NCBI RefSeq assembly: GCF_025024155.1
Contig: NW_026251758.1
Location: forward strand, 124,001 to 188,000
DNA length: 64,000 nt
Direction: 5' to 3'
DNA from: Gamsiella multidivaricata
Lineage: Eukaryota > Mortierellomycota > Mortierellomycetes > Mortierellales > Mortierellaceae
Within the stretch, counting starts at the first letter, position 1, and every line of letters starts with the position of its first letter. Shown here piece after piece: positions 5,073 through 13,516 of this stretch. Both the position numbers and the translations under genes were made by a program. The notes below the pieces were generated by a model that was not told where the DNA came from, made no database searches, and saw nothing but the letters and a program-made list of their open reading frames with translations.

Positions 5073-7039
5073 GTTGTCGAGTAGATGGTAATGGGATTAA
5101 TGAACTTCTGGATTGTACAGCGCACCTCCTTTTGCTCGTTCAGCCGCGGAGAAGTGGCTTGTCACACTTTTCTTTTTGTTCTTTGGGCGACCATTCACCG
5201 CTAGAATTGTGCTACATCACTCACCTCGCCATCACACCGTTGTTCACCTTGGCTTCTCAGGCATCAGTTTAGCGAAAGTCTCATCAATAAGTGATCCTCT
5301 TCCAATTTTACTATGTCTTCTGGGGTGAGCATTGGGTGTTCCATGCCTACTGGATGAGAAGGCACAAGGACGTGCCGAATTTTCAGCTGGGTACGCCCGC
5401 AAAACGATTGGGATCCTGCCAACTTGGACAAACCAGCCTACAACCTTGATGTCTGGGGGGTAGGTTTTTCGTTTGGGAGGTGGACCACTTATAAACGTTG
5501 ACCGATACGCCCTAGCGCTTTCGGTCGACGGCTGTCCAAGCAGTGTCATCATCATGGTGATAATGGGGGGTCCGAGCCGACTGAATGAGACGACAGCTCT
5601 GTGGAGCTTTCAATGTCCATATACAAGCTGTCGTGCTTTTCAGTCTGGTATGCTCGCCAAGCGATGGGCGGTCTCAGTATGAGTACATATCAGTCTGACG
5701 CTCAGCATTCGTTTGCATTGTGAGGATAAGGGGTATTTCGTTTGGGAAGTGGATCGCTTTTATACGCTGAGCGATGGTACACAAGCTGTCGCTCAATGTC
5801 TGCCTGAGCAGTGTTCACTTCATTTTTCTATGGACTCGTAGTCATTGTCTTTTGCTTTGATTCTGAGCCTCGTTGCTTGTTTCTATAACGTTATGTCGCT
5901 ACAATTGCATGGCATCTCTACGACCCACATCAACATGCCGACGCTCATTTTCGACTCGATTTGAGACATCGGAGAAAGGTCAGCGAACACATCAATGCAT
6001 CAAAAATAATGGTCGTGCCGAAGCGCACGCTGCGCACGACCCACCAATCCGAGAGCAAGCACGTCCTTTCTGAGCCGCTCTGGAAAGCTGCCATAAAGAA
6101 GAACAAGCCCAGTGCGAGCTACTTCCTTTCCACCATGCCTTCAAAATTTGATCAACTAGAGTACCCGAAGGGCCGGAACGCGAAAATTCGGACTAGAGGA
6201 AGGCACTGGAGTTTGAATGGGCTAGCTGGCTGGACTCTTTCAGTACATCTGGGGTACAACCTCTTTGGGGCATCAGCGTCAAACTCTGAAGGTTTATTCT
6301 CGCTTCAGTACACGATGATGTCATCGGTGCTTCGCCCATTTTACATTCCAGAGTACTGTTGGCATCGACCCAGCCATTATATAAAACCTATCTACACGTA
6401 GACTAGATAGCAGGGTTTACATAAATAAAGTCCTCTTTCTTCACTAGATTGACACTCTCTGGATACCATCGTTTGCATCTTTTAAGAAGTAAAAGGTACT
6501 CGCCCAATTCTAGAAAGATCTTGCCCGATAAGAGACACTTCGGCGGCAGCATCAGCAGCTCATAGATAAACGGAAGATGGACATCCGGATGCAGAATGTC
6601 GAGCAGTTTCGAGCGGGAATTTGGGTGGTACGTAACATTCACTTGTCCTCATTTTTCACTTGGACGTACTATACATGCGCGTGTACAAACTTTAACACTA
6701 GAATGTGCAAGATAGCAGAAGCCACGTCAATGTCAGCATCAGTAAATGCGGATGCCCGATCGCCTACTAAAGGATCATCGTCGAACTCAGAGCTAGCGTC
6801 TACCACGAGCTAAGGCACTACCGCAGCGACACTTGGCGGCGATCAGACCACCCTTGGCAACGCGTGCGATCGTTACACAAAGATCTACAGTATATTATAT
6901 AGCTCCGTATCTGTTTATTCCCCATCTAGTAACTTGAATACAACCCTACGCTTTCCTTGACTCTGTCTCTTAAAACTGTATCACCCTTCCTTGCTCTGCC
7001 TTGCTTAGAAAAGGTCATTCTGACTCTGAATAGGCGTAG
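5073..7039. other. Gene-poor stretch with weak ORF remnants
   Basis: No convincing intact gene. Two segments look faintly protein-coding. On the plus strand, an open frame at about 5961-6401 contains VPKRTLRTTHQSESKHV and FLSTMPSKFDQLEYP. On the minus strand, 6642-6403 reads SKLLDILHPDVHLPF and WYPESVNLVKKEDFIYV; an acidic open segment at about 6830-6700 (EFDDDPLVGDRASAF) could be an upstream exon of the same locus. I recognise none of these. Two diverged copies of a roughly 270-bp sequence lie at about 5376-5560 and 5630-5830. The stretch most likely holds decayed repeats. Confidence 0.4.
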
Positions 7040-9009: not shown

Positions 9010-9158
9010 ACTCTATTTACGCGTCTACTCCCACTCTGCTTGCTTGTCTACTCCCTCCATTTGATTATCTACTCCCATTCTATTTCCCACTCTATTTGCG
9101 CGTCTAACCCACTCCATTTGCTTGTCTACTCCCACTCTATTTACGCGTCTACTCCCAC
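9010..9158 (+). repeat. 23-bp minisatellite, array 1 (direct)
   Basis: About seven tandem units, mostly 21-23 bp with one truncated to 12 bp. Their core is GTCTACTCCCA followed by CTCTATTTGCG or a variant. The array sits about 225 bp upstream of the proposed start of the zinc-finger ORF. The same unit recurs inverted at 12361-12550 and direct at 12583-12710. Confidence 0.85.
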
Positions 9159-9196
9159 TGTTTCCTCTGTTTCATCGCCAATCCTTTCCATTCCCC

Positions 9197-9270
9197 ATTT
9201 CTTCTCGATTCTCCTCGGAACTCATTCACTTCTTTTTCCTCCCCACAATCGAGGTCTGTTCATGGCTGTA
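9197..9270 (+). repeat. Leader repeat, copy 1
   Basis: About 74 bp beginning ATTTCTTCTCGATTCTCCTC and ending CATGGCTGTA. It is closely matched by 12708-12779. In both places it follows a GTCTACTCCCA array, although here about 40 extra bases separate array and leader. It is probably the 5' leader of a repeated element that includes the downstream ORF. Confidence 0.75.
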
Positions 9271-9382
9271 TATGTTCACTTGTTTGTCTTGTTCATGCCT
9301 GTGTTTATTCCGCTTATTGCCGTTCTCTAATACTCATTTCGTTTTCATTTATTCTTTCATCCTACTTTTAGTGTCTAGGAGA

Positions 9383-11179
9383 ATGCTTAAGCGAAACTCT
9401 GACTTCTTGGCTGATCCTGTTGATGAGCGTCCGATTGTGGATGGAAAACGAGGTAGGTTGTCTGACGCCCTTTCTGACGACCGAGCGACTTCACCTGTGC
9501 AATCTGACGAAGAGCATAGCGAAGTCATGAACTCAGAAGGTCAGGATATGCCTGACAGCCCAAGCGCAACCAAATGCACATCTTGTGGAAAGTCGTATAA
9601 GTCGCTGAAGCAACTCCGCACCCATTTTCGTGATTGTCATGAGGAGACTGGGACGGTCCGCCTGAACGATGGATCTTCTGTGTTTGTGAAACGGGAAAAG
9701 GACAAAAAACTCCATTGCCATGCCTGCCGGGCGAATTTCGTCAGCAAGAGTGGAATCCGAAAACATTTCCTGGACAAAGTGCAGTGTTCGGAACTCGCCA
9801 AGATCAACGAGAACATCGTTTCTGGAAGCACCTTCAGCAAAGATTTGCTTCTTACTCTTCCTGAAAGACGGAGAACGTTAGAGGAAGGAATACTCCATGC
9901 GCAAGGAGTGGAGGACGGTCCAGAATCTATCAAGCTCAGGACATTGCTAGCAACATCTCAGCTCGGCATGTCTCCTGTTGGGATCTCGATTGGGGGTGTC
10001 GAGACCTCTTTCACCGTGAGCGCAGCCCTCTACGACATGTTGCCGGATAAACCATTCGTTGTTTCGGCACACAAATCCGTTCCCGATAATAACAAACGCG
10101 GCCTAATCATTGATCGCAACTGCACCAACTGCTCTTCACCACCAACAACCCCAGTCATGGACCTGATCAGGCAATCACCCTTTGCAAGGATCCTTGAAAC
10201 AAGATCGTTCAAGGAGCTGAACAAGAAAGCCAGCACGTATCTAAACCTAGACTGGAGCAGATATCCTCAGGCTGGTTATATTACAGCCCATCTCTTATCT
10301 GGATCGGTGATTACTAACATTCAAAGCGGACAAACCATTCTTGTTAACGAAGTCGAATTTTACGGAAGAGACGCGATGCTTGACTGCCACAAAGAACCAA
10401 CAGGAGAACAAAAGGGTGTTCCCGAGAAGACATCAATACCGAGTACCACGGGAGAAGAATATTATAAACGTGTTCGCCCAGTGACATTGCGGCGCAGGGA
10501 CGGTGTTCGACTTGTTATTGGGACCAACACATGTGGAGTGTTAGTCACATCGTGTATCCGTGTCGACAGGATATTGGAAGGATCAATCTCAGTCGGAGGA
10601 GACACTCGGAATTTCGAGATCTCAGAGAGTGAGCTCAAAAACATTCGAGTGTTCGTTGACAATGAACGCCTGGGAAAAGGAAAGAAGATGAAGAAAAAAA
10701 CCGTGAAGAAAATCACCAAAGACTTCGGGGCCGACAGATTGCGACAGGTCCGCTCGAAATTTCATCGACTCAACACGTTTCGATTAATACGCTGCTCTGG
10801 ACCGCTTACCGACGCCCCGCAGTTCCGGCCATTCAGCGTATTCACGATCGGGAGGAACAGCGACCGTGACTCGGCATCCTCTGGCGCGGCCCACATATTC
10901 TACAAAATGGCGCTGGCAGTCATTCACTACCAAGAGAAGGCAACTTTTACATTGGAGGACATTCGGTTTGGGCAGCAATTATGTCAGTCTGCTAAGGACA
11001 TCTCAATTCCGATGCAAAATATACATGAACTATTCGCAGAAGTTGATACGAAGATTCCTATCATCGGCAACAAACCACTCAACAAACAGCTGCACGCAAT
11101 CGCCGAAGCTCAGTCCACTCGAATCGCGAAAGCAAACAAGAATGTCGCGACAGAACTCAAGGATCTATTTCTTGGATGA
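9383..11179 (+). CDS. Uncharacterised two-zinc-finger protein, element-associated
   Basis: A 598-aa uninterrupted ORF of unknown family. The start chosen is MLKRNSDFLADPVDERP. The frame stays open upstream to 9122, but that part translates the minisatellite and leader and looks non-coding; a tag acceptor just before the ATG could also join an upstream exon. Residues about 1-65 are acidic, Ser-rich and contain a KRGR basic patch. A C2H2 finger follows (CTSCGKSYKSLKQLRTHF then H, spacing C-x2-C-x12-H-x4-H), then a C2HC-like finger (CHACRANF then GIRKHF and C). The remaining roughly 450 residues match nothing I know; a Lys-rich segment (KGKKMKKKTVKK) lies near residue 440. The fingers suggest DNA binding. 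No transposase, reverse transcriptase or recombinase motif is visible. The surroundings (minisatellite, duplicated leader, downstream poly-A) suggest a mobile or amplified gene. Confidence 0.7.
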   Translation: MLKRNSDFLADPVDERPIVDGKRGRLSDALSDDRATSPVQSDEEHSEVMNSEGQDMPDSPSATKCTSCGKSYKSLKQLRTHFRDCHEETGTVRLNDGSSVFVKREKDKKLHCHACRANFVSKSGIRKHFLDKVQCSELAKINENIVSGSTFSKDLLLTLPERRRTLEEGILHAQGVEDGPESIKLRTLLATSQLGMSPVGISIGGVETSFTVSAALYDMLPDKPFVVSAHKSVPDNNKRGLIIDRNCTNCSSPPTTPVMDLIRQSPFARILETRSFKELNKKASTYLNLDWSRYPQAGYITAHLLSGSVITNIQSGQTILVNEVEFYGRDAMLDCHKEPTGEQKGVPEKTSIPSTTGEEYYKRVRPVTLRRRDGVRLVIGTNTCGVLVTSCIRVDRILEGSISVGGDTRNFEISESELKNIRVFVDNERLGKGKKMKKKTVKKITKDFGADRLRQVRSKFHRLNTFRLIRCSGPLTDAPQFRPFSVFTIGRNSDRDSASSGAAHIFYKMALAVIHYQEKATFTLEDIRFGQQLCQSAKDISIPMQNIHELFAEVDTKIPIIGNKPLNKQLHAIAEAQSTRIAKANKNVATELKDLFLG

Positions 11180-11892
11180 GAGAGCAAAGAATGGATACTC
11201 GAGCAACCTCAAATGGACGGCACATTCAGGTCCAATGGTATGTGTGGCCTTTTATTGATAACTAATGAAATATCATCAACACACACGCGACTGATGAGGA
11301 AGGCTTTTAGAACCTGAGGTTTTTCATTATTTGCTTACGATCAAAATTAAAAAAAAAAAAAAAAAAAAAGTATGCATGCATGCATGTATACATGGCAGTG
11401 AATGAGGACGCATACAGGTACAGATCTCCCATCATTGCTATGAGGCTCAATAAGGAATGCAATATGGAGTGAATGCAATGAGAGAAGTGCAACTGTGATA
11501 ATCTCGGAGCTCCTCAAGTTCTAGCGACGTTCATGTGTAACGTGTGGAACAGAAGCGTTAACCATGCCTGCTGGCTCCCTCTACTTCCCTTGACTCCCTT
11601 GACTGAGCAAAAAAAAAAAAAAAAAAACCTAAGAGACCGCAGATACAAGGAGATGGAGCGTGAGCTGGTTCATGGAAATAGTACTCTTTTATTTTGTCCC
11701 CCATATGCTGTTAATTCTAAGGGGTCTCTTAAGCCCAGCGGAACCTTGCAGATCGTAGCAACAAGGCTACCCTACTGCTTACAATACCACATTGCTTAAA
11801 AGTCATCTGCAATGGATATATCTCTTCCAATGTTTGAAATTAACATTAGCAGGCGCCTCATGAAGCCTCCCCGCTCCACAAGACGACTCCAC
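11180..11892. other. Region 3' of the zinc-finger ORF
   Basis: No gene seen. It contains an A tract at about 11349-11368 followed by GCATGCATGCATG, and a second A tract at about 11610-11627. The first could be the 3' tail of a retroposed copy. Confidence 0.5.
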
Positions 11893-12360: not shown

Positions 12361-12550
12361 GCGAACGGCGAGGGAGTAGACAGGCAAATGAAGGAGGAGT
12401 AGACGCACAAATCGAATGGGAGTGGGAGTAGACCAGCAGGAAGAGGGGAGTAGACGCACAAATCGCGTGGGAGTAGACGAAAAAATCGAGTGGGAGTAGA
12501 CCAGCAAATAAAGGGGAAATAGGATGGGAGTAGACGAGTGGAGTAGACGA
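12361..12550 (-). repeat. 23-bp minisatellite, array 2 (inverted)
   Basis: Same unit as array 1 but reverse-complemented (TGGGAGTAGAC cores, about eight copies). The segment 12479-12510 is nearly the exact reverse complement of about 12590-12625, so arrays 2 and 3 form an inverted repeat around a spacer of about 40 bp. Confidence 0.85.
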
Positions 12551-12582
12551 AAATGGGCACCAACATAAGCACTAAGCAGTTC

Positions 12583-12710
12583 CCACCCTATTTGCTGGTC
12601 TACTCCCACTCGATTTTCTCGTCTACTCCCACCCTATTTCCCCTTCTATTTGCTGGTCTACTCCCTCTATTTGCCTGTCTACTCCCTCCATTCGCTCGTC
12701 TACTCCCATT
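12583..12710 (+). repeat. 23-bp minisatellite, array 3 (direct)
   Basis: About six units with the GTCTACTCCC core in the same orientation as array 1. It runs directly into leader copy 2. Confidence 0.85.
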
Positions 12711-12779
12711 TCTTCTGATTCTCATCAGAACTCTTCGCTTCTTTTTCCTCTCCACAATCGAGGTGCGTTCATGGCTGTA
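12708..12779 (+). repeat. Leader repeat, copy 2 (no ORF follows)
   Basis: About 72 bp closely matching 9197-9270 (AATCGAGGT then GTTCATGGCTGTA at the end). Similarity stops at 12779, and no zinc-finger ORF follows. This is the 5' stub of a second element copy. Confidence 0.75.
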
Positions 12780-12935: not shown

Positions 12936-13516
12936 TTAACTCGAGAGCTTCCTGATGAAGTCGTCAGGAACCTTTTCACACTCCTCGTAGATACTGGTGG
13001 GTCGTCTTTCTCGCAGACCGATACGGGTTTTGCTGTACCTCCACACATACTCTATGGGGTCTAAATCAGTGGATGTTGCAGGCCATGGCAGCAGCGTGTA
13101 TCTCTGCCCATCCAAAAAGCACCTTGTCGCAAGAGCAGCGTGTTTAGAGTCATTATCGTGCTGGAAAATAAAATCCTCAACTTGAAGCCTGTAATATTCG
13201 ACCGTGTCCTTCAACGTTGCGAATATCCCAATGTAATCTTCCTTTTCCATGGTGCCGTCGTAGATTTGGCAGCCGTAGCCAAGCCCATTCCATGTCATAC
13301 AGCCCCAAAACATCAAAGACCCTCCACCATGCTTGACTGTTGGCTCCATATAAAACGACTAGATCGGATCGCCTGGTCTTATCCAACAATACTGAATCCC
13401 ATCAGAGTTCGTCTAAAAAGATAACGCGCTTCCAGTCCTCTACAGTCCATGCTTGGTGGGCTTTTGTCCAGTTATATCGCTCTTTGATGTGCCCCTTAGT
13501 CAAGTGTGGTTTCTTG
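12936..13516 (-). pseudogene. Tc1/mariner transposase, broken
   Basis: Cut-and-paste DNA transposase of the Tc1/mariner superfamily. Read right to left it shows KKPHLTKGHIKERYNW, then EDWKRVIFLDE with the first catalytic Asp, then KHGGGSLMFWGCMTWNG. After that come FQHDNDSKH with the second Asp and STDLDPIEYVWRYSKTRIG with the Glu. Thirty-four residues separate the second Asp from the Glu, the DD34E spacing of Tc1. The piece from 13349 down to the stop at 12936 is open. The part between FLDE and the KHGGG motif has stops in every frame (for example a TGA right after DEL), and the N-terminal helix-turn-helix is not seen. It is therefore a dead copy. No clear terminal inverted repeats were found. 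Confidence 0.85.

Follow-up and report, generated by a model that had tools for sequence, protein, structure and literature searches.

A Mortierellaceae gene family that joins two zinc fingers to a domain predicted to fold like the DNA glycosylase AAG

Introduction

The AAG/MPG DNA glycosylases (Pfam PF02245; structures 1F4R, 1EWN, 1BNK, 3QI5 and 3UBY) are described in PMC6728418 as a superfamily of compact single-domain enzymes. For AAG it is reported that Glu125 together with Arg182 activates water and that Tyr127 and Tyr159 hold the base (PMC12347255). Here we analyze a gene of the fungus Gamsiella multidivaricata which is located within a stretch of 64,000 nucleotides (assembly GCF_025024155.1, contig NW_026251758.1, positions 124,001 to 188,000 of the forward strand), called the window in the following. 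The gene codes for a protein of 598 residues whose core is predicted, on structural models, to adopt the fold of AAG, a human enzyme of DNA repair. Unlike the described superfamily members, the window protein adds zinc fingers and a helical C-terminus. With C2H2 zinc-finger proteins it shares one C2H2 and one C2HC finger as well as weak matches to Pfam C2H2 models, but it has just these two fingers, which are followed by an enzyme-like domain.

The 5-methylcytosine glycosylases ROS1 and DME of plants are of the HhH-GPD type and are not homologous to the window protein; the analogy is a functional one only. As discussed for the plant enzymes (PMC11065753), a glycosylase could act on a chromosomal mark, although such a mark is purely hypothetical for the window family. 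For a group of phyla that includes the Mortierellomycota, PMC11258239 gives 0.8-3.8% genomic N6-methyladenine (6mA), and the same source deals with the demethylase ALKBH1 in Mucor. Among the 10 of 311 papers listed by a literature search, none deals, judged by title and abstract, with a fusion of AAG and zinc fingers; we do not claim a wider absence from print.

Results

An earlier note on this DNA, made from the letters alone, had described an open reading frame of 598 codons with one C2H2 and one C2HC finger, and both fingers are indeed there. The reading frame starts with the ATG at 9383 and extends with its stop codon to 11179 (+ strand), nested in an open frame of 704 codons. The C2H2 finger (residues 65-86, 9575..9640, +) has the spacing C65-x2-C-x12-H-x4-H86 and matches Pfam zf-C2H2_4 below the cut-off, and the C2HC finger (residues 112-135, 9716..9787, +) has the spacing C112-x2-C-x12-H-x6-C135. 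Taken together, the matches to Pfam C2H2 models are weak (best E 2e-4), and none reaches its cut-off. Since six proteins from other organisms (P0003-P0008) are 36-53% identical to the window protein and the ratio of nonsynonymous to synonymous substitutions (dN/dS) is 0.25 against a related piece on contig C137, the open reading frame is, as judged from these comparisons, a real coding gene. A run of about 20 A is found at 11350-11369, about 170 bp 3′ of the stop codon. Despite this run no duplication flanking the gene, as for a retrocopy, was seen by eye; a systematic search was not made.

Residues 276-493 (10208..10861, +) make up the domain with the predicted AAG/MPG fold, and the following residues 494-598 (10862..11176, +) are mostly helical in the AlphaFold2 model. 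With VIA-align seven AAG entries top the lists for both predicted models with a lead of more than 4 Z units in the aligned region, covering about 160-170 residues at 9-11% identity. When Foldseek was run with the domain only, AAG took ranks 1-3. The earlier note had proposed to look for an RNase H fold or a recombinase core in this part of the protein; among the matches listed by VIA-align and Foldseek there is no RNase H, transposase or recombinase fold; the fold matched by the core is that of a DNA glycosylase. The fold of the AAG/MPG superfamily is thus seen in predicted models only.

Within the domain E325, Y327 and H336 (codons within 10355..10390, +) are candidates for Glu125, Tyr127 and His136 of AAG, the last of which we take to be an active-site residue. 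Their spacing, E-x-Y-x8-H, is the same as in the human AAG sequence, and they are in register with AAG in the hhalign alignment of the domain, which is itself not significant. In the 39-row family alignment A4, counting rows with a letter, E325 is found in 39/39, Y327 in 38/39 and H336 in 37/39 (Tyr in the other two). R329, D334, E338, S351, P353 and D426 are each present in 39/39 and R376 in 38/39. On sequence grounds the family therefore has putative equivalents of the catalytic glutamate, the base-stacking tyrosine and the histidine of the superfamily.

Copies of the open reading frame, which the earlier note had advised to count, occur at nine family loci in the G. multidivaricata genome (10 match rows, two of which are one locus on C171). 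At the DNA level we found one full copy and one 425-bp piece with 86% identity on contig C137; diverged protein relatives exist at seven more loci (C122, C156, C169, C144, C1, C171 and C176). The C137 copy is a piece of 145 codons, and the copies on C156, C171 and C1 are partial or contain stops. Several of the nine are thus decayed. Of the three readings offered by the earlier note, that of an amplified host gene comes closest; a non-autonomous element and an unrecognised transposase, the other two, are not supported. The C137 piece (L006/L114) belongs to the annotated protein BC939DRAFT_525462 (P0011).

Three protein searches, each of which scored about 7,990 candidates so that relatives outside the Mortierellaceae may exist, list 43 proteins among their matches, one being the window's own. 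For 24 of the 43 the genus is given (Haplosporangium, Entomortierella, Mortierella, Gamsiella, Linnemannia, Lunasporangiospora, Podila and Benniella), and we take all these genera to belong to the Mortierellaceae, the placement of Gamsiella having been looked up. The named family members among the matches listed are only "hypothetical", "uncharacterized" or "unnamed" and carry no functional name. A tree of 39 rows, rooted at midpoint, splits into clades of 15 (with the window protein and C122) and 24 (with C144, C169 and C176), each with support 100/99. The window protein and an unnamed sequence form a pair (98/90), as do C144 and a protein of M. claussenii (99/95), and C176 groups weakly with Linnemannia (86/89). 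The intron-rich clade has both fingers as well: in exon 1 of the C169 copy two finger-like motifs can be seen by eye. Seven of 13 pairs were saturated in the dN/dS analysis and the other six gave 0.25, 0.27, 0.36, 0.42, 0.42 and 0.50, the last pair involving a decayed copy. Judged by these ratios, purifying selection acts on the family. Because old paralogues have counterparts in other genera and purifying selection is seen, we favor a gene family: the window gene is most likely a member of an old, undescribed gene family of the Mortierellaceae and not a transposon.

In one family member, P0006 of Entomortierella beljakovae, another sequence stands in place of the C-terminal part; inspected by eye, it resembles a PD-(D/E)XK nuclease. 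This other sequence has no Pfam match, and P0006 may be a fusion made by the gene model. In a scan of viral_contigs for a viral origin there were 102 pattern matches, none of them a relative. The structural search of BFVD with the domain gave two weak matches to giant viruses (E ~1e-2), the uncharacterised proteins A0A3G5A9Y1 and A0A1V0SB56 of Hyperionvirus and Catovirus, which may be AAG-like.

Upstream of the gene we find the 23-bp array and the leader of which the earlier note had spoken. The pyrimidine-rich minisatellite lies at 9029..9159 (+); TRF reports periods of 23 and 57 with 81-82% matches, and six unit starts can be counted from 9024 to 9148. The leader (9160..9382, +) is 73% pyrimidine and possibly contains an intron of the 5′ untranslated region, from GT at 9254 to AG at 9371 or 9378. 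Array and leader recur without the open reading frame 3.5 kb away, as had been stated: TRF and sequence comparison place the second array at 12581-12707 and the end of the partial leader at about 12779 (12581..12779, +). An inverted copy of the array at 12372..12509 (− strand), detected with TRF and all-against-all BLASTN, is absent from the earlier note. Across the genome, the 23-bp unit with at most one mismatch has 7 matches, all at the window locus (0 for a reversed control pattern), and the leader is found at 2 places, both at the window locus, in a search that skips very common words. The two are not dispersed as parts of an element would be; the array 5′ of the gene is a repeat local to this site and not an element terminus.

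With a threshold of period ≥15 and score ≥80 in TRF, 6 of the 8 substantial loci have an array no more than 224 bp from the gene, whose limits are approximate; with the C137 piece, which is without array, the count is 6 of 9. On C169 the array is 1,035 bp from the gene, separated by an inserted element, and C171 is without array. A control sequence of 168 kb contains 12 arrays, and 10.7% of its 1.5-kb and 25.4% of its 3.5-kb segments have one. Units are common to C122/C156, to C169/C144 and to C1/C176, so that the loci in this count are not independent, and overall there are several unrelated unit sequences. The array is 5′ of the gene in C127 (the window gene) and C122, and 3′ in C144, C1 and C176. 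The association of array and gene looks real but modest. The earlier note had supposed that the protein may bind its own 5′ repeats. As the paralogues adjoin arrays of several unrelated sequences, we do not favor one conserved target of the fingers such as the 23-bp unit, and autoregulation by the fingers through the arrays is a guess.

An all-against-all BLASTN of the nine 10-kb loci showed no common ends, and the copies break at different points. At none of the nine loci did we see the defined ends and target-site duplications around repeated whole copies that characterize a DNA transposon. The C169 paralogue is flanked by 838-bp inverted repeats (98.9% identical; L109, oriented 1133-1970 and 5349-6186), one of them inside the array. 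By eye, ACGC is duplicated around one repeat and CCGA around the other. Because each repeat has its own 4-bp flanking duplication, we regard the repeats as two separate insertions of another element and rejected a composite element on C169.

Discussion

We suggest, with a probability of roughly 0.6, that the window gene belongs to a host gene family of the Mortierellaceae whose proteins have one finger each of the C2H2 and C2HC types, followed by an AAG/MPG-fold domain and by a helical C-terminus, and work by a glycosylase-like mechanism. As to catalysis, base flipping, substrate and targeting by the fingers, we infer the following steps. The zinc fingers would keep the protein bound to DNA, and a modified purine would be flipped out by the AAG-fold domain. 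E325 could then activate water so that the glycosidic bond is cut, with Y327 and H336 lining the base pocket, and ordinary base-excision repair would follow. If the predicted fold is right, the window protein may thus excise a modified base from DNA.

A number of results weigh against this explanation. None of the Foldseek matches of the domain reached E 0.001 (TM-scores 0.23-0.35), and the full model gave no AAG among the best 50 matches listed. PF02245 matches neither the window protein nor any of the 11 members of A1 nor the genome. The attempt to establish homology to AAG via profiles failed, as hhalign gave a probability of 0.14% (E 0.41, not co-linear) against 83 bacterial MPG sequences and 0.55% (E 0.11, co-linear, not significant) for the domain only with human AAG added. 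The loop with H336 has a pLDDT <50 in both predicted models, and the candidate partners of Arg182 and Tyr159 vary or are non-aromatic. A sequence search of the PDB (P0001 and A1 profile) returned zinc-finger chains and a few rows at chance level, with no AAG among the matches listed. Since significant similarity to PF02245 and to the profiles is missing, we speak of a protein with AAG fold that may work like AAG and not of a PF02245 member. The pocket has clearly diverged, so one should not simply expect it to accept the classic substrates of AAG.

An alternative is an AAG-fold protein which no longer cuts and instead serves as a reader of DNA or of a modified base in a zinc-finger protein for regulation or silencing. 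No counterpart of Arg182 or Tyr159 is established, the hairpin strands expected to bear Tyr159 and the intercalating residue appear to be non-aromatic in the window protein (V378, I379, T381-T383, in the register we assume), and the fusion of zinc fingers to the domain also speaks for a reader. A pure binder, however, would not need the invariant E325 and the nearly invariant Y327 and H336, and we consider such a reader unlikely, yet the strongest of the rivals. It is much less probable that the match to AAG is coincidental and that the domain has a new fold or is a distant member of another class, for example the C-terminal domain of formyltransferases: all seven AAG entries lead both VIA-align lists over the domain, and a motif chosen independently shows the catalytic spacing.

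Least probable of all is a mobile-element protein, an unrecognised transposase or the cargo of a non-autonomous element, with the arrays as subterminal repeats. The nine dispersed and in part truncated or interrupted loci, the frequent nearby arrays and the transposon pieces in the vicinity (in the window DDE_3 at 12936-13349; on C122 a reverse transcriptase; on C176 a piece of a chromodomain) could be explained in this way; the last suggest that the loci lie in a repeat-rich neighborhood. But this reading is unsupported, because array and leader are confined to a single locus, the paralogues have no common ends, the C169 repeats are independent insertions and the fold matched is glycosylase-like. 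The changing side of the arrays and the counterparts of C144 and, weakly, C176 in other genera speak against it too.

Returning to the glycosylase-like explanation, a substrate might be sought in 6mA. Profile searches of the genome gave 4 matches to MT-A70 on 3 contigs and 1 to N6_Mtase, and genes of the 6mA writer type may, by these matches, be present. PF02245 had 0 matches in the genome and HhH-GPD had 3, and a canonical MPG in the genome was rejected. A function at an adenine mark is worth testing because of the high 6mA reported for the phylum and the MT-A70 and N6_Mtase matches. We can imagine, as a long shot, a lineage-specific AAG-fold glycosylase aimed by its zinc fingers which is a base-excision eraser (or a reader) of N6-methyladenine; such an eraser would be the adenine counterpart to the plant 5-methylcytosine glycosylases. 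If the fold holds, the Mortierellaceae, members of a phylum for which high 6mA is reported, own a set of unannotated proteins in which an AAG-like domain is linked to zinc fingers, and the family bears on whether AAG-type chemistry has moved from repair into genome regulation or defense.

Some features of the neighborhood may be added. The transposase piece in the window (12936-13349, −) is Tc1/mariner-like, its DDE_3 match (E 8.9e-6) being just under the curated cut-off. Just upstream of the C122 paralogue (L107, 5760-6251) a 21-bp unit is repeated about 23 times, with copies 94% alike, and the reverse transcriptase frame is on the opposite side of this paralogue. Downstream of the C144 paralogue lies a gene (L010, 154-786, −) that gave no Pfam match. 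In a related frame on C169 a peptide is repeated whose DNA resembles the unit of the nearby 22-bp array.
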